Notes under the pieces: generated by a model
Told to the model about the DNA's origin: nothing
Seen by the model: only the letters and a program-made list of their open reading frames with translations
The model's database searches: none
DNA from: a bacterium TMED88
GTDB taxonomy: Bacteria; Myxococcota_A; UBA9160; UBA4427
Direction of reading: 5' to 3'
Length of the DNA stretch: 34,501 nt
NCBI GenBank assembly: GCA_002171515.1
Contig: NHEP01000116.1
Location: 1 to 34,501, forward strand
In this document: positions 264 through 23,551 of the stretch, one piece after another
Position numbering within the stretch: position 1 is the stretch's first letter
How the letters are laid out: every line of letters starts with the position of its first letter
Translations under genes and position numbers: made by a program

Positions 264-677
264 ATGACCGAGACGGGGCCGCTTCCCGAACTGGACCCAG
301 ACAACACCTTCTTCTGGACGAGTGGCGCCGACGGGCGGCTGCGTTTTCTCCGGTGCAGCGACTGCCAGAACTTCGTTCACCCTCCCCGACCGCGTTGCGC
401 GGTATGCCGAGGGGAGAACCTGTCGCCGCAGACCGTCTCGGGCCGAGGCACCGTACACACGTTTACGGTCAACCACCAGCCATGGGTTCCTGGCATGAAA
501 GTGCCCTTCGTCGTGGCCATCGTGGAACTCAACGAGCAGCCGGGCCTTCGGCTCACGACGAACATCATTCAATGCCCGCCTGAAGAGGTTTACGTCGGTC
601 AATCCGTCCGCGTCGCCTTCGAACAAAAAGAGGACGTGTGGTTACCCTTCTTCGCGCCGGAGGAAGGCCGGTCATGA
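264..677 (+). CDS. Zn-ribbon OB-fold protein (DUF35 family), partner of the downstream Ltp2-like protein
   Basis: This 137-residue protein has the DUF35 layout: an N-terminal helix and rubredoxin-like zinc ribbon with Cys31-x2-Cys34 and Cys45-x2-Cys48 (RCSDCQNF and RCAVCRGENL), then an OB-fold with VSGRGTVHTFTVNHQ. DUF35 proteins act as obligate partners of thiolase-fold enzymes. In mycobacterial and Thermomonospora steroid catabolism the DUF35 domain of ChsH2 forms the side-chain aldolase together with Ltp2. The start has an AGGGAG ribosome site 9 bases upstream, and the stop overlaps the next gene's ATG (ATGA at 674-677), so the two are translationally coupled. A stand-alone DUF35 without a fused hydratase domain is common. 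A cytoplasmic structural or CoA-binding role in a complex with the next gene product is likely. Confidence 0.9.
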   Translation: MTETGPLPELDPDNTFFWTSGADGRLRFLRCSDCQNFVHPPRPRCAVCRGENLSPQTVSGRGTVHTFTVNHQPWVPGMKVPFVVAIVELNEQPGLRLTTNIIQCPPEEVYVGQSVRVAFEQKEDVWLPFFAPEEGRS

Positions 678-1858
678 AGTACCTTGAAAAAGAGGCCGCC
701 ATCACAGGCATCGGTGTCTCCGACGTGGGGCGCCCTGTCAACCGATCTGGACTCGCACTGACCGTGGACGCGTGCCTTCAAGCCATCGCGGATGCCGGAC
801 TCAACCCCGAGGACATCGATGGACTGGCCAGCTGGCCGGGCCGCTCGGATGATCACCCGGGTATGTCTCCCGTTGGTCTCATGGAGGTGAAGGAATCGCT
901 GGGACTGAAGCTCAACTGGTTCACCGCCGGCGGAGAAGCGCCATCCCAGATTGCAAGCGTCATCAACGCCGCTGCCATTGTGGCGGCCGGTTACGCTCGC
1001 CATGTGCTGTGCTTTCGCACGGTCACCGAAGCCTCGTCGCAAACTAAGAACCGCCGGGCCAGCGTCAGTGGTTCAGGAGGGAAACGCGTCCGGGGCGACC
1101 TTCAGTTCCAAGTTCCCTTCAAGGCCATGTCGGCCTCTCAATGGATAGCGATGTTTGCTCAGCGACATTTTCACGAGTATGGAACCACCAAGGAACAGCT
1201 GGGCTGGGTTGCGCTGAATGCTCGCCGTCATGCTGCCCATAACCCCCGCGCAATCTTTCAAAAGCCCCTGACCATGGACGATTACCTGGGCGCGCGAAAC
1301 ATTTCGACTCCTTTTGGCCTCTACGACTGCGACATCCCCTGCGATGGATCAACTGCGGTCATCGTCTCCCGAAAGGAAGAAGCTCGAGACCTCCGCAAGC
1401 CAGTCATCCGGATCGAGGCCATCGGCAGCTCAATCCACGGCCGGTACTCTTGGGACCAATATTCCGATCTCACCAGCATGCCCGCCGAAGAGAGCGCTGA
1501 AATGCTGTGGAATCGAACCGACCTCAAGCCGGCCGACGTAGACGTTGCAGAGCTCTACGATGGATTCAGCTTCCTGACCCTGGCGTGGCTAGAAGCCTTT
1601 GGCTTCTGTGCCAAGGGAGAGTCCGGACCCTTTGTTGAAGGGGGACACCGCATCGGGTTGGACGGAGAGCTTCCGCTCAACACACAGGGTGGACAACTCT
1701 CCGGCGGACGACTCCATGGGATGGGATACCTGCACGAAGCGTGCACCCAGCTGTGGGGAGAAGGCGGAGCACGCCAAGTCCCCGGCCAACCGCAAGTCGC
1801 CGCGGTGGGCGTCGGGGGGGGGCCCGTGTCCGGGTGCATGCTGATTGTGCGCGAGTAA
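674..1858 (+). CDS. Thiolase-superfamily protein lacking catalytic cysteines; Ltp2-like retro-aldolase candidate
   Basis: The ATG at 674 overlaps the DUF35 stop; an in-frame GTG at 638 would intrude 40 bases into that gene and is less likely. The 394-residue product has the SCP2-thiolase/lipid-transfer fold. The nucleophile loop reads GGEAPS (86-91) instead of a Cys motif, the usual HDCF is ELYDGFSF (Tyr295), the C-terminal GHP motif is replaced by NTQGGQLSGGRLHG (Arg346 in the His position), and the final Cys-Gly loop is GVGGGP. These substitutions match what is known of Ltp2, a thiolase-fold aldolase that cleaves tertiary hydroxyacyl-CoA side chains with a DUF35 partner. The predicted reaction is retro-aldol release of a short acyl-CoA from a cyclic or branched beta-hydroxyacyl-CoA. 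The substrate is unknown; a degenerate thiolase with another role is the alternative. Confidence 0.85.
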   Translation: MKYLEKEAAITGIGVSDVGRPVNRSGLALTVDACLQAIADAGLNPEDIDGLASWPGRSDDHPGMSPVGLMEVKESLGLKLNWFTAGGEAPSQIASVINAAAIVAAGYARHVLCFRTVTEASSQTKNRRASVSGSGGKRVRGDLQFQVPFKAMSASQWIAMFAQRHFHEYGTTKEQLGWVALNARRHAAHNPRAIFQKPLTMDDYLGARNISTPFGLYDCDIPCDGSTAVIVSRKEEARDLRKPVIRIEAIGSSIHGRYSWDQYSDLTSMPAEESAEMLWNRTDLKPADVDVAELYDGFSFLTLAWLEAFGFCAKGESGPFVEGGHRIGLDGELPLNTQGGQLSGGRLHGMGYLHEACTQLWGEGGARQVPGQPQVAAVGVGGGPVSGCMLIVRE

Positions 1859-1878: not shown

Positions 1879-2070
1879 TCAGCTCTCGATCAAAATCGCT
1901 CGCTCCGGACACATGGTCTCAGCTCGCCGCACGTTGTCGTACTCCGATTCGGGCACGTCTTCATGGGCCACCGAAGCAAACCCCTGTTCATCGGCCTTGA
2001 AGACCGCGGGGCAGAAAATGACGCACTGCCCGTGACCCTGACACAACTCCGCATCGAGCTTCACTTTCAT
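1879..2070 (-). CDS. Single-cluster ferredoxin, P450 redox partner
   Basis: This 63-residue protein carries Cys10-x2-His13-x2-Cys16-x3-Cys20-Pro near the N terminus and Cys54-Pro near the C terminus (MCPERAI). The CxxHxxC...CP pattern is typical of the small [3Fe-4S] or atypical [4Fe-4S] ferredoxins next to bacterial P450 genes, where they pass electrons to the heme. An extra cysteine at position 20, often alanine in this family, is retained. The gene lies 26 bases downstream of the P450 stop on the same strand, with an AAGGGAA ribosome site. No ferredoxin reductase is visible in the window, so electrons must enter from elsewhere. It ends 20 bases from the convergent thiolase-fold gene. Confidence 0.93.
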   Translation of the reverse strand: MKVKLDAELCQGHGQCVIFCPAVFKADEQGFASVAHEDVPESEYDNVRRAETMCPERAILIES

Positions 2071-2096
2071 ATCGATTCCCTTTGGCCCTCTGCCGC

Positions 2097-3401
2097 TCAG
2101 CCCTTCACCAACGGCAGAGAGGACAGCCCCTTCATGCCACCAAATCCGATCGCCGGCTGGCTCGGGTTCAACCCATAGTCGGGCAGTCGGCGATGAAAAA
2201 CCTGCAGCGCAATTTTCAGCTCCTTACGAGCGAGGTGGATTCCGAGACAACGATGTGGGCCCATCCCGAAACCGAGGTGCCGGTTCGGAACTCTGTCGTA
2301 TCGAATGACGTTGGGGTCTTCGAACGCATTCACGTCGCGATTCGCCGCTTGGCTGGGCATCAGCACTGTGTCTTCCTGATGAAACAACGCGCCCTTAAAG
2401 GTCAGCTCGCGAGTAATCCGGCGGGGTAGAAGAACGATCGAATGGAACCGAACGAGCTCTTCAATCGCCATGCCGACCCGCTGCGGGTCGTCCATCAGCT
2501 CGATGAACTCATGCCGCTTCTCAGCATCTTGAGCAAAACCCTGAATCATCAACCCCAAAGCCGAGGCCACTGTATCGAGGCCCGCCAGAAAGAGAAGGAA
2601 CATCGTGTCTTCTAACTCTTCCTGAGTGAGCGGTCGTTCGCCCTGATATTGCGCACTCAACAGCGTGGTGATCAGATCATCCTGGGGTTCTTTACGACGG
2701 CGATCCAGAAGCTCCGTAAAGTACGCATAGATCTCCTGACCCACAGTTCCCCGCACGGCCATGTACCCGTCACCGGAGAGTCTGCCCTGATCATCCACTT
2801 CTTGGCCCAGGCTTCGCCCCTTTTCAGTCGCGAGCTTGTGCCCCCGTGGATGGCCATCATCCGCATGCATGAACATGTTTTTCCAGTCCATGATCTTCTC
2901 GTAATCCTCCTTAGGAAAACCCATGAGATTACAGAAAGTGACGGTGGGAAAAGGATCTGCAAAGTCTTCTACAAAATCGAAAGAGTCCTTCTGCAACATC
3001 TCGTCAACGAGTTGATCTGCGTACCTCTCCATTTGAGGCTCAAGCTTCGACATGGCCTCTGCGGTGAAGAGCGGGTTCAAAATTCGGCGATAACCCGTAT
3101 GCATCGGGGGATCGATCGCCTGAGGAATCCAAGGTCGAACGGGGTAGCCGCTGGCCTCACTTGAGAAGTCGGCCGGGTTGCGAAGAATATCGAGAGAATC
3201 CTCGTATCGCGTGACCACCCAACCTTTCCCGTCCTCGCTCCCCGGCGCCAAAGGCGGAAACGATTCACTTCGCGCAACCGGCATGTGTTTTCGAAGGAGA
3301 TCGTAGGTCTCAAATTCATGCTCAAGAAAATCGCCCGGGTAAGGGTTGAAGTCTCGCGCAGCAGAAACAGCTCGATTGAACTCGTCCTCTTCGTCACTCA
3401 T
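2097..3401 (-). CDS. Cytochrome P450 monooxygenase
   Basis: The product is 434 residues from the ATG at 3401, which has an AGGAGG ribosome site; a longer frame to 3455 lacks one. Diagnostic elements are the I-helix oxygen-activation motif AGLDTVAS, the K-helix ExxR (EELVR), and the heme-binding loop FGMGPHRCLG with Cys385 as thiolate ligand. This is a soluble class I bacterial P450 expected to hydroxylate an aliphatic or terpenoid substrate using the adjacent ferredoxin. It sits downstream of two acyl-CoA dehydrogenase genes, after a 105-base gap, in what is probably one operon headed by the GntR regulator. The context suggests terminal or ring hydroxylation before beta-oxidation. The CYP family was not assigned. 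Confidence 0.95.
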   Translation of the reverse strand: MSDEEDEFNRAVSAARDFNPYPGDFLEHEFETYDLLRKHMPVARSESFPPLAPGSEDGKGWVVTRYEDSLDILRNPADFSSEASGYPVRPWIPQAIDPPMHTGYRRILNPLFTAEAMSKLEPQMERYADQLVDEMLQKDSFDFVEDFADPFPTVTFCNLMGFPKEDYEKIMDWKNMFMHADDGHPRGHKLATEKGRSLGQEVDDQGRLSGDGYMAVRGTVGQEIYAYFTELLDRRRKEPQDDLITTLLSAQYQGERPLTQEELEDTMFLLFLAGLDTVASALGLMIQGFAQDAEKRHEFIELMDDPQRVGMAIEELVRFHSIVLLPRRITRELTFKGALFHQEDTVLMPSQAANRDVNAFEDPNVIRYDRVPNRHLGFGMGPHRCLGIHLARKELKIALQVFHRRLPDYGLNPSQPAIGFGGMKGLSSLPLVKG

Positions 3402-3506
3402 TTTTTGGCCTCCTAGCCTGTCCGTACTGCCAATGCCTTGCCCACCCTGAGTCAATTCTTCTGGTGGTCTTTTATTCGCCTGAATCTCGAGGGTCGGGAG
3501 ACGTCC

Positions 3507-4586
3507 CTACCAACCCGCTAGATCCGCGGCGCGCAAACGATGGACCCTCGGTGTGCCCAAGAAGGTCCGGCCAAAAATCGCTCTCTTGAGCCAGAAATGA
3601 ACTTCGCATTCCCACGTGTACCCGATCCCTCCGTGGGCTTCGACGGTTCCCCGTGCCACACGAGTGAATCGGTCGGTCACATGGCTCTTGGCGTGCGCCG
3701 CAGCGCGGGCCGATTCCTCGGGAATGTGATCCCACGCGTAGGCCGAGTACCAAGCCAAGGCTCGACAGGGCTCGATATCGAGGGCCAAGTTGGCCAGCTG
3801 ATGTTTGAGGGCCTGGAACTGACCGATCTTACGACCAAACTGCTCGCGCGTGCCCGCGTAGTCCACCGCAAGTTCAAGGCAGCGTTGCCCGCCTCCGTAC
3901 GCATCGGCCGCCAACAGGACCAGCGCCGCATCGCGCACCCGACCCGACACACCCGATCCACCGGGCAGCGGATCGCAAATCGCATCATCGAAAGTCACCA
4001 AAGCGGTTTTCTGGGTTCGGTCGAGACCGCTTGAGGGATCGAAATGGACCCCGTCAGACGAGGCCTCAACCAGAGCCAGTTCACCCTGATCTAGGCCAAC
4101 GAGGATGACATCCGCCGAATCCGCAGCAAGGACATTTTCCTTCTGACCCGAGATGCGCCCGTCGCGTGGAGAGAGCTTCCACTGCTCGGGTTGCCATAAG
4201 GCACCGGGCTCAGCAAAAGCCAAAGTGGCCACCCGCTCGCCGGTCGCCAATTGGGGCAACCACTTTTCTTTCTGCTCATCACTCCCAGCGAGGGAGAGGG
4301 CCAAAGCAGCGATGGTGTGGGCGAGAAAGGGGCCGGGTGCCGCCGCGTAACCGATTCGCTCGGCCACGCAGGCCAGGTCGAGCAACTCAAGGCCGGCACC
4401 CCCGTAGGCTTCCGGAAGCTGGACGCCGAGAATGCCGAGTTCTCCTAAACCCTTCCAAATAACCGGATCAATGCTCTGATCAGAGTCATAAAACTCACGC
4501 AGGCGAGACAGGGGGCTCTCCGTCTTCAAGTAATCATCAACGGTCTGCTGGAGCAGCCGCTGTTCATCACTGAGATCAAAGTTCAT
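3507..4586 (-). CDS. Acyl-CoA dehydrogenase, small (non-catalytic-type) subunit, pair 1
   Basis: This 359-residue acyl-CoA dehydrogenase fold protein has the FAD-contact motif REQFGRKIGQFQALKH (247-262) and HGGIGYTWE near residue 325. The helix position where the partner has a catalytic Glu (LKHER) reads LVLLAADAYGGGQ here, so it lacks that base. The shape (short, divergent, with a retained RxQFG) matches the small subunits of alpha2beta2 dehydrogenases such as mycobacterial ChsE/FadE28-type proteins. The start codon overlaps the stop of the large-subunit gene (ATGA, 4583-4586), consistent with stoichiometric co-translation. The role is alpha,beta-desaturation of a bulky acyl-CoA together with the partner. 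Steroid- or terpenoid-like substrates are an inference from family knowledge. Confidence 0.9.
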   Translation of the reverse strand: MNFDLSDEQRLLQQTVDDYLKTESPLSRLREFYDSDQSIDPVIWKGLGELGILGVQLPEAYGGAGLELLDLACVAERIGYAAAPGPFLAHTIAALALSLAGSDEQKEKWLPQLATGERVATLAFAEPGALWQPEQWKLSPRDGRISGQKENVLAADSADVILVGLDQGELALVEASSDGVHFDPSSGLDRTQKTALVTFDDAICDPLPGGSGVSGRVRDAALVLLAADAYGGGQRCLELAVDYAGTREQFGRKIGQFQALKHQLANLALDIEPCRALAWYSAYAWDHIPEESARAAAHAKSHVTDRFTRVARGTVEAHGGIGYTWECEVHFWLKRAIFGRTFLGTPRVHRLRAADLAGW

Positions 4587-5761
4587 GCAGTGGATTCCTC
4601 GCGTGGAAGACCGAGTCCCCTTTCCGCAATAATATTTCGCTGGATATTCGAAGTGCCCCCCGCAATCGAATTACCGAGAGAGCCCATGAACTGATTCATC
4701 CACCGCTCGTCTCCACGCTGATCCGGTGCAGCCGCGAAGGGCTCCTTGAGGCTGGCATCCCCGATCAACTCAAGCGCAACCGCCGCAACCTCATGACCGA
4801 TATCCGTCGCCAGCAGCTTGTTGAGCAGCGTGACGATTCCAGGATCTTTGCCTTGGAGGCCGCAGGTCATTTGGTGATACGCGGTGTACTTTTGAGCCCA
4901 AACCCATGCTTCAAGAGCCGCAATACGCTCGCGAATCGACGGGTCTTCCAAGGCCGGACGTCCGTCGAGGGTGGCCTTTCCGACGAGACGCATCAGACTC
5001 TCAAAAATAGCCTGCGATCCACCCCCGATGGCGTTGCGTTCATGTTTCAAGGTGGTTTTCGAAACCTTCCATCCCTCACCACGCTCGCCCACGATCCAGT
5101 CCGCAGGCGTTCGGGCGTCGTTCAAAAAAACTTCGTTGAAGTGGGACTGCCCTGTGATCATTTTGAGCGGTTTAATCTCGATACCGGGCTGGTCGAGCGG
5201 AACGAGCAGATACGAAATGCCCGCATGCTTGGATGCCTCGGGTTCCGTCCGGACTAAAGTAAACATGAATTGACAGTGCTGAGCCTGACTGGTCCAAATC
5301 TTCTGACCATCGATGACCCACTCGTCGCCTTCAAGTCGCCCCTGGGTTCTCAGAGAGGCCAAGTCACTGCCCGAACCCGGCTCGCTGTAGCCTTGGGCCC
5401 ACTGATATTCGCCTAGGATGGTCTTGCGGATAAATTTTTCCTTCTGCCACTCCTCCCCCCGCTCCAAAAGCGTTGGGACAAGCATGGACACCCCGTTCCC
5501 CGAGACCTCCATCGGTGCGCGCGCTCGACCAAACTCCTCTCGAATGACCTGCGCCTTCAATGCGTCGGCGGGCTGTTCACCACCGCCATACGCCTTCGGT
5601 ACCCCTCGGTAGAGGTAGCCCCGGTCCGTCGCGGTCTGCCGAAAATCGGAAGTCGCCTGGGGTGCGTTTCCTTCCCGAGAGCCCTGAAGCCAATGTTCGG
5701 CAAGAAAATCTCGGACCTCGAGACGGAAGGCCTCGTATTCTTTTCCATATGCTAAATCCAA
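4583..5761 (-). CDS. Acyl-CoA dehydrogenase, large catalytic subunit, pair 1
   Basis: The 392-residue product carries QGYSEPGSGSDL (123-134), the flavin/substrate loop, and GQKIWTS. The C-terminal segment is SIAGGTSNIQR, so the MCAD-type catalytic Glu is absent. A Glu lies in LKHER (Glu241), the position used by isovaleryl-CoA dehydrogenase and the heteromeric ChsE enzymes. It should therefore be the catalytic half of a two-gene dehydrogenase with the overlapping downstream small subunit. It starts 28 bases after the GntR regulator stop and is probably co-transcribed with it. The likely step is FAD-dependent formation of 2-enoyl-CoA on a branched or cyclic substrate. Confidence 0.92.
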   Translation of the reverse strand: MDLAYGKEYEAFRLEVRDFLAEHWLQGSREGNAPQATSDFRQTATDRGYLYRGVPKAYGGGEQPADALKAQVIREEFGRARAPMEVSGNGVSMLVPTLLERGEEWQKEKFIRKTILGEYQWAQGYSEPGSGSDLASLRTQGRLEGDEWVIDGQKIWTSQAQHCQFMFTLVRTEPEASKHAGISYLLVPLDQPGIEIKPLKMITGQSHFNEVFLNDARTPADWIVGERGEGWKVSKTTLKHERNAIGGGSQAIFESLMRLVGKATLDGRPALEDPSIRERIAALEAWVWAQKYTAYHQMTCGLQGKDPGIVTLLNKLLATDIGHEVAAVALELIGDASLKEPFAAAPDQRGDERWMNQFMGSLGNSIAGGTSNIQRNIIAERGLGLPREESTA

Positions 5762-5789
5762 CCGGTGACTCCGTTACCTGGGTTGCTCA

Positions 5790-6572
5790 CTACTCGAAGA
5801 GATCAATCTTTCTTCGTTCGCCCATCACCGCCCCCATACGGGCAGCGACACTGTTGACATGTTCTCGCCAGTGACTCATGGCCTTATCCGCCTCACCCGC
5901 CTCGATGAAGTCCACCAACTTCTTATGGGAACGGACCGCTAAATCGGTCCGGGTAGCCGCGATGGCTTCGGGGGTCAGAGCGCGAGCGGCGTGCGTTTCG
6001 ATGATGTCTCGCAGCATGCCCACGATTAAGGCCAGGGTCTGGTTGCCGGCCAATTCCATGATGAGTTCATGAAACCGGGTACTGAGTTGCGCGAACTCGG
6101 GTCCGTCAGCGAGGGCGGCCGATTCGAGCGTGATGTGGTTTCTCAAGACGCTGATCGCGCTCTCCGCGCGCTCTTCCGCGAGTCGACGAGCCGCTTGCGG
6201 CTCGAGAAGTACTCGAGCCGCCTGCACGTCTTCAAGGGTCGCACCCGAATGTTGAAGGAATAGCCCCGCGTAGCGTGCGGCAACCCGAATGTCTGGAGCG
6301 AGCACGCGCGCTCCACCCCGCGAACCCCGGGTGACCGCAATCAACGACTCGGATTCCAAGATCCGAATCGTTTCCCGGAGTGTCGGCCGAGACACACCGA
6401 ACTGCTCCATCAACTCCGCCTCGGATCGGAGCAAATCCCCCTCGCGCAGGGTTCCACGAATGATCTGTTGGCGAAGTCGGCCCGCCACAATCTCGGCGGT
6501 TTTGGGCACACGGATCGCCTTGTCAGACCTAATCCGCACGAAACCATTGCTCCCCGAAGGGGTACGCGGCAT
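5790..6572 (-). CDS. GntR-family regulator, FadR subfamily (FCD domain)
   Basis: From the ATG at 6572 (GGGAG ten bases upstream; an upstream TTG at 6596 lacks a ribosome site) the protein has 260 residues. Residues about 24-90 form the winged helix-turn-helix (SEAELMEQFGVSRPTLRETI, then the wing TRGSRGGARVL). Residues 110-245 form the all-helical FCD ligand domain, with His168 (FHEL), His217 (SHKKL) and His238 (REHV) at the usual metal-ligand positions. FCD regulators usually repress until an acid or acyl-CoA binds. It is divergent from the ligase operon at 6725 and heads the dehydrogenase/P450 operon. The palindrome GTATAATCATAC at 6627-6638 is its likely autoregulatory operator. Confidence 0.93.
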   Translation of the reverse strand: MPRTPSGSNGFVRIRSDKAIRVPKTAEIVAGRLRQQIIRGTLREGDLLRSEAELMEQFGVSRPTLRETIRILESESLIAVTRGSRGGARVLAPDIRVAARYAGLFLQHSGATLEDVQAARVLLEPQAARRLAEERAESAISVLRNHITLESAALADGPEFAQLSTRFHELIMELAGNQTLALIVGMLRDIIETHAARALTPEAIAATRTDLAVRSHKKLVDFIEAGEADKAMSHWREHVNSVAARMGAVMGERRKIDLFE

Positions 6573-6626
6573 TCCCAGTTGTCTCCCAGCGCCCAAATGA
6601 AGGCCGACGAAGCTGTCTTTCTTTGA

Positions 6627-6638
6627 GTATAATCATAC
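6627..6638. promoter_or_regulatory. Palindromic operator candidate in the GntR/ligase divergent promoter
   Basis: GTATAATCATAC (GTAT-4-ATAC) lies between a plus-strand -35-like TTGAGT (6623-6628) and -10-like TAGATA (6647-6652, 18-bp spacer). On the minus strand it overlaps a possible -10 TATACT (6626-6631). The minus-strand reading TTGTATGATTA fits TNGTNNNA-NA, the FadR-subfamily half-site pattern with one change. Binding here would block both divergent promoters. The assignment to the adjacent GntR protein is inference. Confidence 0.55.
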
Positions 6639-6724
6639 AACATCGTTAGATAAATGGGGCCGGTTTCCTCCGCTGAGAATCACCCGGACCCCAACAAACC
6701 AATGGTTTCGAGGAGACTGGTCCG

Positions 6725-8233
6725 ATGGGACTCGCGTCCCGTATTCAGAGTGTCCTCAAGATCGACCCCGACCGGATCGCGGTGGAGTTTGAGGCCCGGT
6801 CGCTCACTTGGGGCGACCTCGGCCGCCTCATTGAGCAAATCGATAGCCAGCTGAGCGACGCGGGAGTCGGGCCCGGACAGCCCGTCGGTTTGCTGCTCCG
6901 CAACCGTCCAGAAATGGTCGGCGCTGTGCTCTGCATGCTGTCCACCCGACGCTGCATTGTCTCCCTGAACCCCCAGCAAGGCGGAACCAAACTTCATCGC
7001 GATATCGTCGAGGTCAGGGTGCCCGCGCTGATCGCCGTGGAGGACGACTGGTCGAATCCCGATCTTCAAAAGGCGGCTCAGAAAACGGGGAGCTTCGGCC
7101 TACAGCTAAAAACCTCGGGTGATGGAGCGGTGCAGCGCGTCCCCGGGCTTGAGCAGGTCAGCGATGAACCCCACCGTACGGTCAACCCGGATATCGCGAT
7201 CGAAATGCTGAGCAGTGGTACCACGGGAAGACCCAAGAGAATCCCGCTGAGCTTCGAGGCACTCGAGGAATCCATTGTCGGCGCAGACCACTACGAATCC
7301 AACCGTAGCGAAACTCCATCACTTCAAAACAGCTTCGCCTTGGTGAGCACACCGCTTGTCCATATCGGCGGGATGTTTCATATGACCAAGTCAGCTGTCG
7401 ACGGGCGACCCATTTGTTTGCTGGATCGGTTCCGTCTCGACGCCTGGCGCGCAGCGGTCAAAAAGCACCGCCCCAAGGTCACGGGACTCGTTCCCGCCAG
7501 CATGAAGATGGTCCTCGATGCGGAACTCCCCCCGGAAGAGCTCTCGTCACTCCGTGCCGTGACCTCGGGGACAGCGCCTTTGAATCCTGAAATTCAAGAG
7601 CGATTCGAAAGCCGGTTCGGGATACCCGTCCTGATCACCTACGGCGCCACGGAGTTTGCCGGGGCGGTCGCGGGATGGACGCTTCGCGATCATCGTGAAT
7701 TTGGAAGCGCCAAGCGCGGTTCGGTGGGCCGCGCCCACCCCGGCTGCGAATTGCGGATCGTCGACCCGGAAAGCGGGGAAGTCCTCTCCGAAAATCAATC
7801 GGGGTTGCTTGAAGTCCGCTCGGCCCAGGCCCCTTCGCGGGGATGGATTCGAACCACCGACGAGGCACACCTCGACGAGGATGCTTTCCTATGGATCGAA
7901 GGCCGAGCCGATGGCGCCATCAATCGCGGCGGGTTCAAAATTGATCCGACTAGCGTCGCGGAGGCCCTTGAGCGACATCCCAGCGTTCGCGAAGCCGCGG
8001 TGATTGGGCTCGATGATGATCGACTCGGACAAATCCCGGCTGCGCTCATCGAGCTCAAAGAAGGGGCTGGGCCCATCGAAGAGAGCGAGATTCTCGATTT
8101 TGCTCGAGAAAATTTAACCCGGTACTACGTTCCTGTACATTTGAAGATCGTCGACGCCATTCCGCGTACGCCCTCCCTCAAGCCCAGTCAGCCCGACATC
8201 AGGGAACTCTTTGCGCAGGAGCTGTCCAAGTGA
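6725..8233 (+). CDS. AMP-forming acyl-CoA ligase (ANL superfamily)
   Basis: The 502-residue protein has the phosphate-binding loop SSGTTGRPKR (163-172; Arg in place of the usual final Gly), an A5-like YGATEFAG, the adenylate-binding RTTDEAHLDED segment, and a C-terminal lysine region (RTPSLKPSQ). It activates a carboxylic acid to the acyl-CoA through an acyl-AMP. An AGGAG ribosome site precedes the ATG. Its last codon overlaps the GTG of the SDR gene (8230-8233), and the phosphotransferase gene follows. With an SDR and a kinase next to it, the set resembles the ligase (LvaE-like) of the levulinate/4-hydroxyacid pathway. This is contextual; the substrate is not defined by the sequence. Confidence 0.9.
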   Translation: MGLASRIQSVLKIDPDRIAVEFEARSLTWGDLGRLIEQIDSQLSDAGVGPGQPVGLLLRNRPEMVGAVLCMLSTRRCIVSLNPQQGGTKLHRDIVEVRVPALIAVEDDWSNPDLQKAAQKTGSFGLQLKTSGDGAVQRVPGLEQVSDEPHRTVNPDIAIEMLSSGTTGRPKRIPLSFEALEESIVGADHYESNRSETPSLQNSFALVSTPLVHIGGMFHMTKSAVDGRPICLLDRFRLDAWRAAVKKHRPKVTGLVPASMKMVLDAELPPEELSSLRAVTSGTAPLNPEIQERFESRFGIPVLITYGATEFAGAVAGWTLRDHREFGSAKRGSVGRAHPGCELRIVDPESGEVLSENQSGLLEVRSAQAPSRGWIRTTDEAHLDEDAFLWIEGRADGAINRGGFKIDPTSVAEALERHPSVREAAVIGLDDDRLGQIPAALIELKEGAGPIEESEILDFARENLTRYYVPVHLKIVDAIPRTPSLKPSQPDIRELFAQELSK

Positions 8234-8970
8234 AGAACCCGCTGCTCCACAATCAAGTCGCCCTAGTGACTGGCTCGACGCGGGGCCTCGGCCGCTCGAT
8301 CGCCGAACGATTTGCCCGAGAAGGCGCCCAAGTCGTTATCAATAGTCGCACGCAAGAGGATGCCGAAGCCGTGGCCCAAGCGATTGGGCCCCCAGCCATC
8401 GGGATGGCCGCCGACGTGTCAAAGCCAGAAGAGGCCAACCGATTGGTCGAGCAGATTCAACGCGAGACAGGCCGACTCGATATCTTGGTCAACAATGCGG
8501 GAATTGCGTTGGACAATTTTGTGACGGGTATCAGCGACGAGCGATGGGATCAGGTGATCGCCACCAACCTTTCTGGACCCCTTTATTTGATCCGGGCAAC
8601 CGTTCCCCACATGAAACAGCAAGGCGGTGGCACCATCCTCAACCTTCTGTCTTGGTCAGGACTGCGGGGGAATGTCGGGCAGGCGACCTATTCGGCGTCC
8701 AAGGCCGGGCTGCACGGCCTCACACTCTCGCTTGCGAAAGAGCTCGGAAAATTCGGCATCCGGGTCAATGGCTTGGCGCCGGCCGTGCCGACTGATATGG
8801 CCGATCAAATGAGTGACGAGCTCAAGAAAAAGACTCGCGGTCGTCGACCGATCAAAATTGACGGCACAGTCGACGACGTCGCCGAGGGCGCGCTTTTCCT
8901 CGCCTCGGAGCGCTCACGATTCACGACGGGTCAGATCTTGCACGTCGATGGCGGCTTGCATCTCAATTGA
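8230..8970 (+). CDS. SDR oxidoreductase, FabG-like
   Basis: The 246-residue classical short-chain dehydrogenase starts with GTG overlapping the ligase stop. It has TGSTRGLG (14-21, nucleotide binding), NNAG (88-91), Ser141, and the catalytic Tyr154-x3-Lys158 (YSASK). The residue after beta-strand 2 is Ser-Arg (INSR), which suggests NADP(H). It probably interconverts a hydroxy- and oxoacyl-CoA or a similar cyclic alcohol and ketone. In the Lva-like reading of this operon it would act on the 3-hydroxy or 4-hydroxy acyl intermediate. The full length and intact motifs indicate an active enzyme. Confidence 0.92.
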   Translation: MKNPLLHNQVALVTGSTRGLGRSIAERFAREGAQVVINSRTQEDAEAVAQAIGPPAIGMAADVSKPEEANRLVEQIQRETGRLDILVNNAGIALDNFVTGISDERWDQVIATNLSGPLYLIRATVPHMKQQGGGTILNLLSWSGLRGNVGQATYSASKAGLHGLTLSLAKELGKFGIRVNGLAPAVPTDMADQMSDELKKKTRGRRPIKIDGTVDDVAEGALFLASERSRFTTGQILHVDGGLHLN

Positions 8971-9003
8971 AGGCCGTGCGCCCCCCCGAGGAGCGGATTT
9001 TGA

Positions 9004-10368
9004 ATGGCTGAAAGCGAGCTCCCGAATGACTTAAACCTGTGGATCGAGGAGACCGCGGACGGTCGCCTGATTCAAGCCACCCGGCGACCCGGCGGAGCCC
9101 GCCGAGAGGCTTGGTATGTCGACATCGAGAAAAAAAACGGTGAGGTGGAAGAACTCTTCCTTCGACTCGATCGGAGCCTGCGTTCCGAGACGGGTGATCC
9201 CTATTCCTCTCTCCGCGAAACCGAGGTCTACCTCGCCCTTCAGAACACCTCGGTGCCTGTCCCCGCAATTCACGGAGTCCTGAAATCGCCGCAAGCCGTT
9301 CTGTCCGATCGGATCGACGGTGATACGTGGTTTTCTCAAATTCAGGACCCGGATGAGCAGCTCTCCGTGGCCCAGGACTTTATGCACCACCTTGCGGCAC
9401 TGCACCGGATTGATCCGCACAGCCTCGATATTCCAGCCCTGGGGTCAGTGCCCACCGCACGAGAGAGCGCCTTAAGGGAAATCGATGCCTGGGAAAATCT
9501 CTACCAAGCGGCTCAGGCTGGGCCCCACCCCCTGATCGAATTCTCGCTTCGATGGGCACGCCAAAACATCCCCGACTACGAAGGCCCCGTCGTCTTGGTC
9601 CAAGGCGATACCGGTCCCGGCAACTTTCTCTATGCCGAGGGCAAGGTCACGACCATTGTCGACTGGGAGCTCGCCCATTGGAGCGATCCCATGGACGACA
9701 TCGCCTGGCTTTCCTTGCGAGCGGTCCAGGAGCCCTTCACACACCTCCCCGATCGCCTGCGGGAGTATGAACAACTCTCAGGGCACCCTCTTGATGAGAA
9801 ACGAATCCGCTTTTACCAAATCATGGCCGAGTTGCGCATCGCGATCATGGGTCATCAAGAAATGAAGCATCGCTCGTCGGATCGAGAGGTCGGAAACGGA
9901 CTCATTTTTGGAGCGCTTCACGAAAGACTCTTGGTTGAATGTCTGGCCAAATCCATCGACCTCAAGCTGGACCCACCCAAGCCGCCCTTGCCCCTCGAAA
10001 CAGACCGAAGCTGGCTTTACGACGCCGCCCTCGACCAAATTCGATCCGTGATCGTTCCCAAGAGCGAAGACCCTTTCGTCATCCTCAGAGCGAAGGGAAT
10101 CGCTCGGATCCTTAAACACCTCCGAGATGCCGACTCGATGGGCCAAGAGTTTGAAGCACAGGAAAAAGCCGATCTCGAAACGCTGATCGGCGAGCACTTC
10201 GAGGACGCCGCTCAAGGTCAGTCTGTGCTGGTCGATCGGATGCGCGATGGATCTCTCCCGGCGCAGGCACTGATTCACTTCTTCTATCGGAAAGCGATGC
10301 GCCGAACGGAATTGGTCCGATCAGCCAGCGGCGCCCTCGCCGAACGCCACTACCCCGCCCTCTTTTAA
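9004..10368 (+). CDS. APH-like acyl-CoA kinase fused to a DUF6285-like C-terminal domain
   Basis: Residues 1-330 form an aminoglycoside-phosphotransferase-like kinase: the catalytic loop is VQGDTGPGNF (Asp202, Asn207; the usual HGD His is Gln) and the metal site is DWE (Asp220). From about residue 335 to 454 follows a helical domain (YDAALDQIR..., ...LVDRMRDGSLP, ...HYPALF) that resembles DUF6285 proteins. Those are usually encoded separately beside such kinases. Related kinases include LvaA of Pseudomonas and the kinase domain of ACAD10/11, which phosphorylate 4-hydroxyacyl-CoA so that phosphate can be eliminated by an acyl-CoA dehydrogenase. Two dehydrogenases sit in the divergent operon. 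The fusion call rests on recognised pattern only. Confidence 0.82.
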   Translation: MAESELPNDLNLWIEETADGRLIQATRRPGGARREAWYVDIEKKNGEVEELFLRLDRSLRSETGDPYSSLRETEVYLALQNTSVPVPAIHGVLKSPQAVLSDRIDGDTWFSQIQDPDEQLSVAQDFMHHLAALHRIDPHSLDIPALGSVPTARESALREIDAWENLYQAAQAGPHPLIEFSLRWARQNIPDYEGPVVLVQGDTGPGNFLYAEGKVTTIVDWELAHWSDPMDDIAWLSLRAVQEPFTHLPDRLREYEQLSGHPLDEKRIRFYQIMAELRIAIMGHQEMKHRSSDREVGNGLIFGALHERLLVECLAKSIDLKLDPPKPPLPLETDRSWLYDAALDQIRSVIVPKSEDPFVILRAKGIARILKHLRDADSMGQEFEAQEKADLETLIGEHFEDAAQGQSVLVDRMRDGSLPAQALIHFFYRKAMRRTELVRSASGALAERHYPALF

Positions 10369-12727: not shown

Positions 12728-13900
12728 TTAACGATGTTTGGGTAAACCCAACACGCGTTCACCCACAATGTTCCGCTGGATCTCCGTCGTCCCGCCACCG
12801 ATCGACGATGCAAAGGATCGCAAATACGTGTTCGGCCAATCCTCCGAGGACGTACCCATCACCAGGCCGTCGGCTCCCAAGATCTCCATCGCCAAGCGCC
12901 GCAGACGCTGTTCAAGCTCGCTCAGGTAAATCTTAAGAATCGAGCCCTCCGGGCCAGGCACCGGGCTGCGTTGCGCACGCGAAACCGATGCCAGCGTCAT
13001 CGCACGCATCGCAGCCACTTCCGCTCGCAATCTCGCGAGCCGCAAGCCAATCTCGGCATCCTGCAGGGCCGTCCCCTGACCCCCGAAAACCGGCTTGCCT
13101 CGAGCGAGGTCGACGAGTTTTTCGACGTTGCGGGCCATGGCGATCTGCCTCGCCATAAAGGCGGTCCCTCGTTCAAACCCCAGGGTCGACATGGCCACAT
13201 CCCAGCCGTTATTCAATCCCCCGACTACGTTGCTCAGCGGGATGCGGACCTCTCGATAAAAGACTTCGCAAAACTCAGCCCCGCCATCCAAGGTCTTGAT
13301 CGGCCGAATTTCAATCCCCGGCTGATCCATCTCACCAATGACCCAAGTGATACCGCCGTGTTTCGAAGCGTCTGGGTCGGTCCTCACAAGCAGCTCTTGG
13401 TAATCCGCCACATCCGCAAAGCTGGTCCAAATCTTCTGCCCCGTCACCACGAGGTCATCGCCATCGATTTCTGCGCGGGTTTGCAAACCCGCCAGATCTG
13501 AGCCGGCCTGTGGCTCCGAAAAGCCTTGGCACCACACCACATCCCCACAGAGTATTTTTGGAAGATGGCGTTTTTTTTGCTCGTCATCCGCGCGCGCAAT
13601 CAATGTGGGCCCTGCGTGATTAACGCCGACAAAACATGATCCGATGTACGGCCCGTCCGCCCGGGCGTACTCTTCGTGCCAAATCATCTGCTGAATCAGC
13701 GTGAGGCCTCGCCCACCATATTCCGTAGGCCAAGAAACCCCCGCCCAACCCCCATCATATTGAGCCTTCTGCCACGCCAAATCCCAGGGGCGGGCTTCCG
13801 CTTCAGTCTCGGGTCGTCGCTCACTCGGCACATTCTCTCGTAGCCAAGTTCTGACTTCGTCGCGGAATTGCTCTTCTTCGACTGTCGTCTCAAGATTCAT
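12728..13900 (-). CDS. Acyl-CoA dehydrogenase, large catalytic subunit, pair 2
   Basis: This 390-residue protein has CQGFSEPQAGSDL (124-136), GQKIWTS, and a C-terminal IGGGTTEIQRNIVGERVLGLP without the MCAD-type Glu. Glu243 in LGFER occupies the isovaleryl-CoA-dehydrogenase-like catalytic position. Its start overlaps the stop of the small subunit gene (13897-13900). This mirrors pair 1 at 3507-5761, but the gene order is reversed (small first) and the sequence is clearly different, so it is not a recent duplicate. It probably desaturates a different intermediate of the same pathway. Confidence 0.92.
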   Translation of the reverse strand: MNLETTVEEEQFRDEVRTWLRENVPSERRPETEAEARPWDLAWQKAQYDGGWAGVSWPTEYGGRGLTLIQQMIWHEEYARADGPYIGSCFVGVNHAGPTLIARADDEQKKRHLPKILCGDVVWCQGFSEPQAGSDLAGLQTRAEIDGDDLVVTGQKIWTSFADVADYQELLVRTDPDASKHGGITWVIGEMDQPGIEIRPIKTLDGGAEFCEVFYREVRIPLSNVVGGLNNGWDVAMSTLGFERGTAFMARQIAMARNVEKLVDLARGKPVFGGQGTALQDAEIGLRLARLRAEVAAMRAMTLASVSRAQRSPVPGPEGSILKIYLSELEQRLRRLAMEILGADGLVMGTSSEDWPNTYLRSFASSIGGGTTEIQRNIVGERVLGLPKHR

Positions 13901-14928
13901 CCCAACGCCTCAGCGAGCGGCTCAAGTTCGAGTATGCGCTGTAGATGGAATCGGGAGGGACCCGCAACGGCATTGAGCACGTTCGCACGCTTGACAAGCA
14001 GGTGTGCATCGTACTCTGTCGTAAACCCGTAGCCGCCGTGCACCTGAACATTGGCCGATGCATTCTCCAGAGCGGCCTCACCAGCGAGGTGTTTGGCGGC
14101 GGAAATCTGAAAGCCGGCATCCGCATGCCCAGCCCGCAGCGCCAGAGCCGAATAGGCGACTTGGCTCCAGGCCGCTTCGCTGCGAACCGCCATATTGGCA
14201 CACGGGTGTTTGATGGCTTGATAGACACCGATGGGCCGCCCAAACTGCTTTCGTTCTTGGGCGTAGGTCGCCGATTGATCCCGCGCCGCTTCACCCACGC
14301 CGCTCAACAGGGCGGCGACCAAAAGAGCGCCAACCTGAAAGAGGCCCGGTCCCGAATCAACTCGGACACACGGAAGCGAGTCCTCTAGGACCGCTCGCCC
14401 CAGATCGGTAAATTCATCTACGCACGGATGCGGCGCATAGGGGAGAGGCTTTGCGTCGAAGAGAAATCCGCCGTCCTGGTCGACCACCACCCAAAAATCG
14501 ACCCCGTCCCCATCGTAGATCTGAATCTCACCCGAAACCCCTGAGCGACGAACCCACGAAGAAAGGGGCTCGGCCCATCCCGCCCGAGCTCGACCTTGGA
14601 TCAGAGCCTCGAGCCGGTCCTCATCACCCGCCTCGGCTGCGACCCGAGCGGCAACAACGGTCGCCAAAACTTGCAACGGACCGACGCGACGACCCAGCTC
14701 CCGCAACAGCAAGATTTCTTCAACGAGGGACAAACCAACGCCCCCGCTCGACTCGGGAATCGCCAACCCGAACCAACCGAGCTCGGCCATCTGGCGCCAG
14801 AGCCCGTCGTCTGGGCGAGAAGCTTGAGTGTCCCCTGTGCGCAGGCGCTCAATCGGCAGGACATCGTCCAAAAAGGAGGCTGTCGTATCGACGATCTCTT
14901 GCTGCGCTGAGTCGGGCAGAAGGTCCAT
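13897..14928 (-). CDS. Acyl-CoA dehydrogenase, small subunit, pair 2
   Basis: This 343-residue dehydrogenase-fold protein has ERKQFGRPIGVYQAIKH (225-241) for flavin contact and VHGGYGFTTEYDAH near the C terminus. It lacks the Glu-Arg pair at the catalytic helix, which reads ALLSGVGEAARDQ. The length and divergence match the non-catalytic subunit of heteromeric acyl-CoA dehydrogenases. The 4-bp overlap with the large subunit gene supports a 1:1 complex. It begins 10 bases after the stop of the dienoyl-CoA-reductase-like SDR. Confidence 0.88.
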   Translation of the reverse strand: MDLLPDSAQQEIVDTTASFLDDVLPIERLRTGDTQASRPDDGLWRQMAELGWFGLAIPESSGGVGLSLVEEILLLRELGRRVGPLQVLATVVAARVAAEAGDEDRLEALIQGRARAGWAEPLSSWVRRSGVSGEIQIYDGDGVDFWVVVDQDGGFLFDAKPLPYAPHPCVDEFTDLGRAVLEDSLPCVRVDSGPGLFQVGALLVAALLSGVGEAARDQSATYAQERKQFGRPIGVYQAIKHPCANMAVRSEAAWSQVAYSALALRAGHADAGFQISAAKHLAGEAALENASANVQVHGGYGFTTEYDAHLLVKRANVLNAVAGPSRFHLQRILELEPLAEALG

Positions 14929-18330: not shown

Positions 18331-19104
18331 TCACTCCGAGCGAGAGGCTAAGACCTTTCGGGCAGCCTCATCGAATCGGCGAGTCGGACGAAGCATCTCA
18401 CGCACCTGTTTCGCGTACCCCAGAGACTCCTCTTTTGAAAGATCCATCGTCCGAGAAAGATGAGCCTGTGTGACCCGAACGCCCTCGGGATCCATCTCGG
18501 CGATCTGCTGGGCCATTTCCATCGCCCTTTCCCAGAGTTCTGCAGAAGCTTCAACGCGATTCGCGAGACCGATTCGAACCGCTTCGGCCCCGTCGATCAC
18601 TGCGCCGGTCAGAATCAATTCGCGGGCCTTCGCGAGACCCACCAGCCGAGGCAATCGCGTACTCGCGCCCCAGCCCCCCAATCCCGATCCCAGTTTCTTG
18701 AGGTGCCAATCACTGATCTCGGCGGTTTCACCCACGATTCGAAGATGACACGCCATCGCCACCTCAAGGGCTCCGGTGGTACAAATCCCATCAATCACAG
18801 CGATCGACGGTTTCCAACACTGATCGATCAAGTTCGTGAGAACGCCGCCTGGATTGCCCGGCGGCAACTTCCCCGAAGCGGCCTCCTTTAAATCGTCGCC
18901 CGCACTAAAGCACGGCCGGCCATCGGGCCGGGGCGAGCCGGCAATCAGATAGGTGCGAATCGACTCATCGCGACGAATCCGCTTGATGGCGTCTGTCAAC
19001 TCGTTCAGGAGTTGAGTGTTCATCGCATTCAAGCGCTCCGGTCGATTCAGTCGCAAAATGGCGACGGCGCCCTCTTGCTCGATATCCAGGACATGCTCGC
19101 TCAT
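18331..19104 (-). CDS. Enoyl-CoA hydratase/isomerase family protein with one conserved Glu
   Basis: The 257-residue crotonase has RLNRPERLNAMN, the oxyanion segment PCFSAGDDLKEA and GICTTGALEVAMAC, in which Glu114 sits at the first catalytic position. The second Glu is missing: the matching stretch is SDWHLKKLGSGLGGWGAS, with Lys near position 136. This arrangement is known among hydratase/isomerase relatives whose reactions are undetermined. The start overlaps the stop of the DUF7064-like gene (ATGA, 19101-19104). It is the last gene of the ligase operon, pointing to a dedicated job on that ligase's product. Confidence 0.88.
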   Translation of the reverse strand: MSEHVLDIEQEGAVAILRLNRPERLNAMNTQLLNELTDAIKRIRRDESIRTYLIAGSPRPDGRPCFSAGDDLKEAASGKLPPGNPGGVLTNLIDQCWKPSIAVIDGICTTGALEVAMACHLRIVGETAEISDWHLKKLGSGLGGWGASTRLPRLVGLAKARELILTGAVIDGAEAVRIGLANRVEASAELWERAMEMAQQIAEMDPEGVRVTQAHLSRTMDLSKEESLGYAKQVREMLRPTRRFDEAARKVLASRSE

Positions 19105-20084
19105 ACTGACCCCTCACCTTGACGACGCAAATCGTAGAAGTGCGCCATGGACCAAACATCCTGATCCTCGCCCCACCCCTCTTGGCCATCGATTTCCCAT
19201 CGCAGAAAGGTGTTGATACAAAGGCTGTTGCTCGGGAGAAAAAGGCAGCTGCGGGCACGTCCCAAAGCATGCAGCGCCCTCCCGTCCGTGTCCTCAGCCT
19301 CGATCTCGATGGTTGAAACGCCTCCATGCGCTGGGTCTCGTGTCACCCGACGACGGGCCGATTGGAGCCGTCTCAAAACGCCATCACGAAAAAGAAAACC
19401 CGAGGTCAATGTCTCTTCCTCGGACAAAGGCGCATCTTTCGGAGGGACACAGAAGGCCAAAAATGCGTCGTTGGGAGTACAAGACCCAAAGGCGTAGCTC
19501 AACCGCGTGCTTCGACCGATTCGCTCGGGTCGACGCCCCCAGGATCGATCACGGACCGAAACACAATCGACATCCACCCGCTCGCCATCAACTTCGATCG
19601 TCCCTCTCAACCGTCCGGGCTGGTCATAGTGAGTCGAACCGATGAAGGGGGGTGCCCCCTGGACGTGTGGAACCGGCGGCACGAGACCTTCGAATTCTAG
19701 GTCGGCGACGAAATCTTTCATGTCGCGAAATTGATAACCCAGTGCGTAACGCATCCCCGGTTCAAGGCAACGCAACGAAAAGCCACTTTTGAATTGGACG
19801 TCAGTCAAATCCAAGGGCTCGGGAACGGGGTGATGCGAAAACCATCCGTAGTACGGCTGCTCCCAAGGACCGGTGAAACCAGGTCCGTAGACAAAGGCTC
19901 CCCCGGTCACTGTTCCGATGTTCGGTCGCACCTGCGCATACAGCCAGCCCGCCCAGTCGCGTTCCGGGACATGAAAGCTAAACCAGAGCGTTTCGGTCCA
20001 ATCCGCAGCCGACTCAAAAGAATGCAAACAGTCGTCGGAAGACTGAAAACAAATGGACTCGTCAAACGGGAAATCTATTTCCAT
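19101..20084 (-). CDS. Uncharacterised DUF7064/DUF7065-like protein (CrtC-like beta-rich fold suspected)
   Basis: The 327-residue protein is predicted soluble, with no signal peptide or membrane segment. It is rich in Trp, Tyr and acidic residues. Features include WTETLWFSFHVPE, YGPGFTGPWEQPYY, the basic/aromatic block VSVRDRSWGRRPER (around 170-185) and the late segment WEIDGQEGWGEDQDVW. The VRDRSWGxR stretch and two-part layout recall the DUF7064/7065 proteins found beside lipid and steroid catabolic genes and distantly the lipocalin-like hydroxyneurosporene synthase (CrtC) fold. I recognise this only by pattern. A GGAGGT site precedes the ATG. It lies 46 bases after the ligase and overlaps the crotonase, so a lipid-binding or hydratase-like role in that pathway is plausible but unproven. 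Confidence 0.8.
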   Translation of the reverse strand: MEIDFPFDESICFQSSDDCLHSFESAADWTETLWFSFHVPERDWAGWLYAQVRPNIGTVTGGAFVYGPGFTGPWEQPYYGWFSHHPVPEPLDLTDVQFKSGFSLRCLEPGMRYALGYQFRDMKDFVADLEFEGLVPPVPHVQGAPPFIGSTHYDQPGRLRGTIEVDGERVDVDCVSVRDRSWGRRPERIGRSTRLSYAFGSCTPNDAFLAFCVPPKDAPLSEEETLTSGFLFRDGVLRRLQSARRRVTRDPAHGGVSTIEIEAEDTDGRALHALGRARSCLFLPSNSLCINTFLRWEIDGQEGWGEDQDVWSMAHFYDLRRQGEGSV

Positions 20085-20130
20085 CGGCTACCTCCGGGCA
20101 TTCAGTGATTCGTTCGAACTCCCCTATCCG

Positions 20131-21744: not shown

Positions 21745-21795
21745 CCAACCGTCTCCCTTATGAATCAAACAATGCACTGACCCAATCAGCTAAAA

Positions 21796-22669: not shown

Positions 22670-22701
22670 ATACCCTCTTGACTCAAAGGAGACCAGCCCG
22701 A

Positions 22702-23511
22702 ATGGTGAGCGATCCAGCGTCTTCGGGCATTTCCATTGAAAGCGCCCCCCCGGTCCTGAGGATTCAAATTCAACGACCGGAACGGCGGAACGCGATCCAC
22801 GGGGCCAGTTTTGATCGACTCGCCGAGGCCTTCGAGGCCGCGATGAGCAACGACGCCCTTCGTGTCATTCAGCTCACCGCCGAGGGAGAGCACTTCTGCG
22901 CGGGGGCAGACCTCGAAATCTCCAATGCACCGAGTTCAACGCGGCCTCGAACCGGCCATATGGTGCGAGGCCTTGGACGCGGCGCGCACCGCATGATTCG
23001 AGCCATGCACGAATGCCCGGTTCCGATTGTGGCAGGTGTGCGCGGATTCGCGGCGGGGGTCGGCTGCAATCTTGCCTTGGCGGCTGACTTCGTGATCGCC
23101 TCGGAGAACGCCCAATTTGTCGAGCCTTTTGTGGAAAGAGGGCTCACGCCCGATAGTGGCTCCTCTTGGATTCTGCCCCGTCTGGTCGGCCTGGCCCGGG
23201 CACGCCGGATGCTGTTGCTCGGGGAACCGATCTCAGGAGAAGAGGCGGAGGCCTGGGGCATGATTCACCAAGTCGTCCCCGACGCGCAGATGGATCACGC
23301 GGTGGTGCAACTGGTCGCTCGACTGGCCTCGGCGGCGTCCCTTTCAGTCGGTCTCGCCAAATCACTCATCCATCGAGGGCTCTCATCCAGCTTGGCTGAA
23401 GCCTTGGAGAACGAAGCCTACTCCGAGGAACTGGCGATCCGCTCCAAAGACTTTAAAGAGGGCCTCAAGGCCTTTCGCGAGAGACGCAAACCGAAGTTTG
23501 AAGGCCTATAG
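22702..23511 (+). CDS. Enoyl-CoA isomerase/hydratase-like crotonase (PaaG/ECI-type features)
   Basis: From the ATG at 22702 (AAGGAG upstream) the product has 269 residues. The oxyanion segment is EHFCAGADL. The central helix GFAAGVGCNLALAADF has Asn123 instead of the first hydratase Glu. The next part reads PFVERGLTPDSGSSW, with Asp151 in the PD motif typical of PaaG and delta3,delta2-enoyl-CoA isomerases. It is therefore more likely an isomerase, shifting a double bond before hydration, than a simple hydratase. It lies 40 bases before the carboxyltransferase gene and is probably co-transcribed with it. Confidence 0.88.
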   Translation: MVSDPASSGISIESAPPVLRIQIQRPERRNAIHGASFDRLAEAFEAAMSNDALRVIQLTAEGEHFCAGADLEISNAPSSTRPRTGHMVRGLGRGAHRMIRAMHECPVPIVAGVRGFAAGVGCNLALAADFVIASENAQFVEPFVERGLTPDSGSSWILPRLVGLARARRMLLLGEPISGEEAEAWGMIHQVVPDAQMDHAVVQLVARLASAASLSVGLAKSLIHRGLSSSLAEALENEAYSEELAIRSKDFKEGLKAFRERRKPKFEGL

Positions 23512-23551
23512 AGTCGCTGACCCTCGCGTTTCAGAACTCAGGAGAAATTTG

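Follow-up and report, generated by a model that had tools for sequence, protein, structure and literature searches.

The window analysed here is the whole of contig NHEP01000116.1 (G000:C174; 34,501 nucleotides) from an 81% complete metagenome-assembled genome (MAG) of the bacterium TMED88, and it encodes an APH-family kinase together with a DUF7064/DUF7065 protein, a pair conserved in several bacterial phyla. The explanation we judge best, and rather probable, is that the kinase and the DUF7064/7065 protein, a putative partner resembling the recently solved 25-phosphosteroid lyase (25-PSL), would together dehydrate a steroid-like or isoprenoid intermediate that bears a hydroxyl group, with the acyl-CoA dehydrogenases (ACADs) encoded near the kinase acting separately. 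A preliminary description of positions 3507–10368 had assigned phosphate elimination to those ACADs. Phosphorylation followed by elimination is still likely, but not with the ACADs as eliminators, as they lack the signature residues and the conserved neighbour of the kinase gene is the DUF7064/7065 gene.

9004–10368, forward strand: APH-family kinase, 454 aa (Pfam APH, 8.7e-21)
19101–20084, reverse strand: DUF7064/DUF7065 protein, 327 aa, proposed 25-PSL-type phosphate-eliminating lyase (Pfam, profile and fold matches; RDRSW at residues 178–182)

Linkage of the kinase to a DUF7064/DUF7065 protein

Full-length relatives of the kinase (30–58% identity) occur in same-family MAGs as well as in Rhodococcus, Mycobacterium, Methylobacterium and Sphingomonas plasmids, the named MAGs with orthologues belonging to the Myxococcota/Deltaproteobacteria. 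Among the eight closest relatives compared (L068 of genome G035 counted in), a DUF7064/7065 gene lies directly adjacent to the kinase gene, at a distance of 0–116 bp, in seven, which come from Myxococcota, Actinomycetota and Alphaproteobacteria. The eighth kinase (L020, genome G021) stands at a contig start; in that genome the lyase orthologue lies on a different contig, together with genes for a DUF35 protein, an ltp thiolase, a small ACAD subunit and an SDR that shares 59% identity with SDR6 of the window. In the neighbourhoods of 60 related kinases of the class, picked solely on kinase score, DUF7065 genes numbered 10 against 0.37 expected, a 27-fold excess, the expectations for DUF7065 and for ACADs being built on approximate genome-wide rates. 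Trees of both proteins were made by quick maximum likelihood, with SH-aLRT as the sole measure of support. On the kinase tree the adjacency label requires 4 changes, compared with 16.4 when shuffled; on the other tree, kinase-linked DUF7065 proteins separate from unlinked ones, and the window protein groups with those whose partner kinases belong to the same clade as the window kinase. DUF7065 was detected with a profile made from linked members; independent Pfam matches agree with it, as does a leave-one-out test in which the profile scored the excluded window protein at 2e-94 and unlinked proteins at 7e-25 or worse.

In Rhodococcus rhodochrous GD02, where the kinase gene stands beside a lyase gene on a plasmid, an island resembles the window in many of its genes (identities: kinase 46%, lyase 36%, ligase5 47%, ligase 44%, ECH2 56% and GntR 43%), suggesting from sequence that the two share one pathway and that R. 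rhodochrous could serve as a culturable test host. Conservation of the ligase-SDR-kinase arrangement across genomes, put forward in the preliminary description as a check, was not found in the kinase relatives examined, in which the gene before the kinase encodes a PQQ/cytochrome c protein (L019, L021), an SMP-30-like protein (L030), the lyase itself (L033) or others. Many other clades of ~450-aa APH kinases (within L069–L127), which do not stand beside DUF7065, have recurrent neighbours of their own, including LLM oxidoreductase genes (L079–L087, L095) and crotonase genes (L071–L075, L077–L078).

In Sterolibacterium denitrificans, 25-HSK phosphorylates a tertiary C25 alcohol and 25-PSL eliminates the phosphate (PMC8449060, PMC11061730). 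When a profile of seven DUF7064/65 proteins was searched against the PDB, 25-PSL was the sole kind of match at E < 0.01 (1.9e-4), and a Foldseek search with an AlphaFold2 model of the window protein (three sequences, pLDDT 68, pTM 0.73) returned 25-PSL for all of its top five PDB matches (5e-12 to 2.5e-10), with an AttH protein, pericyclases and kievitone hydratase next in rank. A phmmer search of the PDB with the single lyase sequence gave no match, so that 25-PSL is reached by family profile and fold search only. The motif RDR[ST]W is present in 23 of 23 proteins of the linked clade, as in 25-PSL, while all 13 unlinked proteins carry RDHSW or RDKSW. The aligned core of 25-PSL holds RDRSWG and the product-complex entry 9g4c reads RNRSWG, indicating that the depositors mutated the Asp of RDRSW, a residue invariant in the linked clade. 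By profile, fold and motif, the window protein is thus a remote homologue of 25-PSL. No lyase candidate was noted near the 25-HSK gene (PMC8449060), and the gene linkage described here is therefore an addition to what is known of such enzymes.

The kinase and the neighbouring acyl-CoA dehydrogenases

The kinase domain extends over approximately residues 26–247, with a QGDTGPGNF loop (D202/N207) and a DWE motif (D220), and its catalytic residues, as well as R71-E72, are invariant in eight homologues. The kinase is 28% identical to LvaA (7e-23) and continues for ~180 residues beyond this domain, with an LvaB/DUF6285-like stretch at about residues 335–430. LvaB is a small essential partner of LvaA. 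Our Lva benchmark was the annotated lva operon of a Pseudomonas aeruginosa plasmid, in which lvaB is named and the other genes were assigned by gene order and product; the authentic LvaB (plasmid p12939-PER, L034:7969–8325) is a DUF6285 (PF19802) protein (4.8e-24), and DUF6285 recurs as a domain fused to kinases of this kind. The C-terminus of the window kinase matches the DUF6285/LvaB family by hhalign (93%, P 2e-7; 0.3% for an unrelated control), with the Pfam model below its cut-off, and a clear APH kinase-DUF6285 fusion is encoded on contig C102 of the same genome. Given the LvaA-like domain, this profile match and the fusion on C102, the window kinase is probably a diverged LvaA-LvaB fusion. 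The Lva analogy drawn in the preliminary description thus holds for the kinase and fails for the ACADs, which are steroid-type and lack the LvaC residues. In kinases of other DUF7065-linked clades (L173, L174, L109, L110, L112, L114, L176) the kinase-profile match ends before the LvaB-like C-terminus, and by this measure the extension looks missing or strongly diverged. The AlphaFold2 model of the window kinase was poor (pLDDT 61) and a Foldseek search from it uninformative. One solved kinase, 9fsg (379 aa), is among several relatives of similar score; it may be 25-HSK, its record giving only the name ‘aminoglycoside phosphotransferase-like protein’. A literature search returned no open paper on DUF6285, and none on DUF7064/DUF7065 among the matches listed.

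By gene spacing, the kinase belongs to one of two divergent units separated by a 128-bp gap, ligase-SDR-kinase on the forward strand and GntR-ACAD_L-ACAD_S-P450-ferredoxin on the reverse strand, with 4-bp overlaps between ACAD_S and ACAD_L and between ligase and SDR. This layout agrees with the preliminary description, and the ligase, SDR, kinase, GntR regulator, two ACADs, P450 and ferredoxin named there are all intact open reading frames (ORFs). From ACAD_S to the kinase the genes stand where it places them, the best Pfam match of each having an E-value of 2e-17 or better, and the P450 and ferredoxin genes lie just beyond this interval, at 1879–3455.

1879–2070, reverse strand: ferredoxin, 3Fe-4S-type (CQGHGQC..CP..CP pattern), likely redox partner of the P450
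2097–3455, reverse strand: cytochrome P450; best solved relative CYP125MRCA (8vxi)
3507–4586, reverse strand: ACAD small subunit, ACAD_S (Tcur3481, 5e-32); no Pfam middle domain
4583–5761, reverse strand: ACAD large subunit, ACAD_L (Tcur3483, 4.8e-43; ChsE4, 4x28_A, 6e-41)
5790–6596, reverse strand: GntR/FCD regulator (Pfam; 43% identical to its counterpart in the R. rhodochrous island)
6725–8233, forward strand: AMP-dependent acyl-CoA ligase (26% identical to LvaE, 44% to the R. rhodochrous island ligase)
8230–8970, forward strand: SDR oxidoreductase (37% identical to LvaD, yet generic FabG-like)

The best solved matches of ACAD_L and ACAD_S in a PDB search are Tcur3483/Tcur3481 and ChsE4, and Tcur3481/3483 and ChsE4/E5 are known steroid-type α2β2 ACADs. 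On these matches, both ACADs near the GntR gene are classed as subunits of a steroid-type α2β2 heterotetramer. They share with ChsE4-ChsE5, Tcur3481-Tcur3483 and IpdE1-IpdE2 the adjacent large and small genes and a small subunit without a recognisable middle domain, but unlike these miss the NCBIfam equivalog cut-offs; ACAD_S matches NCBIfam IpdE2 at 2e-50 and 172 bits, under the 450-bit cut-off, and is therefore not named IpdE2. Eight IpdE2-like small subunits, all under that cut-off, are encoded in this MAG, which suggests a rich set of steroid-type heterotetrameric ACADs.

The Lva system is taken here as it appears in citing papers and the annotated plasmid operon. LvaC, ACAD10 and ACAD11 are described as requiring an Asp for catalysis and a phosphate site of the form Arg...His..Arg (PMC12440821, PMC11342911). 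The corresponding signatures read LAPARLTHCMR and IYDGP in LvaC and LGPGRIHHCMR and LADGP in human ACAD11. Alignment to LvaC and ACAD11 revealed neither the catalytic Asp nor the R/H/R residues in any of the four window ACADs, all of which match the heterotetramers Tcur3481/3483 and ChsE4/E5. ACAD_L has a Glu in KHERN and, at the position of the MCAD Glu and LvaC Asp, the residues AGG, as does its steroid-type relative. Nor are ACADs conserved with the kinase, as the preliminary pairing would have them: none lies within 5 kb in the eight closest relatives, and around the 60 related kinases 7 were observed against 8.3 expected by chance. The preliminary description had itself named such an outcome as refuting its pairing. 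The window ACADs were rejected as phosphate eliminators on signature residues and neighbourhood statistics, correcting a pairing of kinase and adjacent ACADs that was plausible but wrong. On contig C168 of the same genome (L181:5302–8013), an ACAD with LGPGRIHHCMR and LADGPDEVH adjoins an LvaA-like kinase, and an ACAD10/11-type pair for a genuine 4-hydroxyacyl-CoA pathway is therefore probably encoded there.

Proposed reaction and competing explanations

In the reaction we propose, the kinase would move the γ-phosphate of ATP onto a hydroxyl group carried by a bulky intermediate, isoprenoid or steroid-like, and the DUF7064/7065 protein would then eliminate the phosphate, leaving a C=C bond; together they would make up a 25-HSK/25-PSL-type dehydratase that depends on ATP. 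The P450 and ferredoxin are a possible source of the hydroxyl, and the ACADs beside the GntR gene would act separately, as an α2β2 dehydrogenase in β-oxidation of the activated side chain or ring fragment; their role in β-oxidation and hydroxylation of the same compound by the P450 are suggested by family and position. Gene content, the linkage and matching clades of kinase and lyase, the relation to 25-PSL and the missing LvaC signature are sequence results; we infer the chemistry, step order and substrate from homology, linkage and context, the island having a steroid-like setting in its steroid-type ACADs, CYP125-like P450 and DUF35/ltp genes. As for the form of the substrate, the LvaB-like domain and the succession of ligase, lyase and hydratase genes (18331–21777) favour a CoA ester, while the relation to 25-PSL, by analogy, favours a free alcohol.

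The 25-HSK/25-PSL system of S. denitrificans resembles that of the window in its APH-like kinase, its β-rich lyase with RDRSW and the steroid-type surroundings, but no lyase candidate was found near its kinase gene (PMC8449060) where relatives of the window kinase have the two genes linked, the LvaB-like extension is a feature of the window kinase, and the known pathway uses Mo-hydroxylases without oxygen where the window has a P450. No Mo-dependent C25/C26 steroid hydroxylase was present among the annotated ORFs of the window, the rest of the genome not having been searched. Compared with lvaABCDE and mammalian ACAD10/ACAD11, the likeness is confined to the LvaA-like kinase domain with its fused LvaB (DUF6285)-like C-terminus; the window is without an LvaC-type ACAD signature, its ACADs are not conserved partners, and the proposed eliminating enzyme is unrelated. 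Phosphorylation by an APH-like kinase followed by elimination by a separate lyase is also found in class V lanthipeptide LanK/LanY (CaoK/CaoY), in which the target is a peptide Ser/Thr and the lyase is of an unrelated, HopA1/OspF-like family (PMC9486802).

Several points weigh against dehydration by this pair. The lyase gene lies 8.7 kb from the kinase gene in the window and on the opposite strand, so co-expression is assumed; the kinase is only a possible orthologue of 25-HSK; with 14% identity in the Foldseek alignment, similarity to 25-PSL is remote, and the AlphaFold2 model behind it rests on three sequences at pLDDT 68. The substrate is assigned from context, and another reaction is possible because the lyase fold is common to AttH, a hydratase and Diels-Alderases. 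Indeed, the kinase and DUF7064/65 protein might serve in modification, transport or binding of a hydroxylated lipid by a lipocalin-like protein, a reading open to a fold shared with AttH and non-lyase enzymes and to lyase chemistry that is itself putative. We consider this unlikely, as the nearest fold and motif match is a lyase and the Asp mutated in 25-PSL is invariant.

A closer variant, differing from the dehydration favoured here in its substrate, is one in which the LvaA-LvaB-like kinase transfers phosphate to a hydroxyacyl-CoA thioester and elimination falls not to an ACAD but to the 25-PSL-like protein. The invariant R71-E72 may match ACAD11 R86 beside the αC Glu, for which CoA binding is proposed by modelling (PMC12440821); the LvaB-like domain and the position of the lyase gene between ligase2 and the enoyl-CoA hydratase gene would also suit such a substrate. 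In linked kinases of other clades, however, the kinase-profile match ends before the LvaB-like C-terminus. An Arg-Glu pair is, moreover, common in this kinase superfamily, which counts against a thioester substrate. 25-HSK works on free sterols (PMC8449060). We regard the variant as doubtful, if less so than a role in binding or transport. Least probable by far is the Lva/ACAD10-11 route, in which a 4-hydroxyacyl-CoA would be phosphorylated by the kinase and would lose its phosphate through the facing ACADs: although ligase, SDR, kinase and ACAD types are all present, with the kinase 28% identical to LvaA and LvaB-like at its C-terminus and the SDR 37% identical to LvaD, the Asp and R/H/R residues occur in none of four ACADs, which are steroid-type heterotetramer subunits neither conserved nor enriched near the kinase, and an ACAD with the full signature adjoins a different kinase on C168.

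Dehydration by the kinase and 25-PSL-like lyase would give DUF7064 and DUF7065, both uncharacterised in Pfam, a function that can be tested, and would do the same for a set of ‘phosphotransferase family proteins’ commonly left without assignment. We see it as evenly balanced whether the linked kinase/phospholyase pairs form a widespread, undescribed family for ATP-dependent dehydration in bacteria with P450-bearing steroid/isoprenoid catabolism, the LvaA-LvaB-like fusion and 25-PSL relative bringing two known routes into one module as a new combination of parts. If so, phosphorylation and elimination of hydroxyls would serve bacteria generally in breaking down steroids and isoprenoids, and would not be special to levulinate users or to a single anaerobe that degrades cholesterol.

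Remaining genes of the island

Outside the two divergent units, the contig carries a catabolic island with DUF35 and ltp-type thiolase genes, a second ACAD pair, crotonase-family genes, SDRs and more ligases as well as the DUF7064/7065 gene.

264–1858, forward strand: DUF35/ChsH2-type OB protein and SCP2/ltp-type thiolase-like protein, overlapping genes (family matches)
12728–14928, reverse strand: second large/small ACAD subunit pair, without LvaC signature (Pfam, alignment)
18331–19104, reverse strand: enoyl-CoA hydratase/isomerase family protein (Pfam); 4-bp overlap with the lyase gene
20131–21777, reverse strand: AMP-dependent acyl-CoA ligase (ligase2; Pfam), directly upstream of the lyase gene with a 46-bp gap

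Neither a biotin carboxylase nor a biotin carrier was recognised in the window; at 22678–25045 a carboxyltransferase (mmdA-like) gene is overlapped by a crotonase-family gene.

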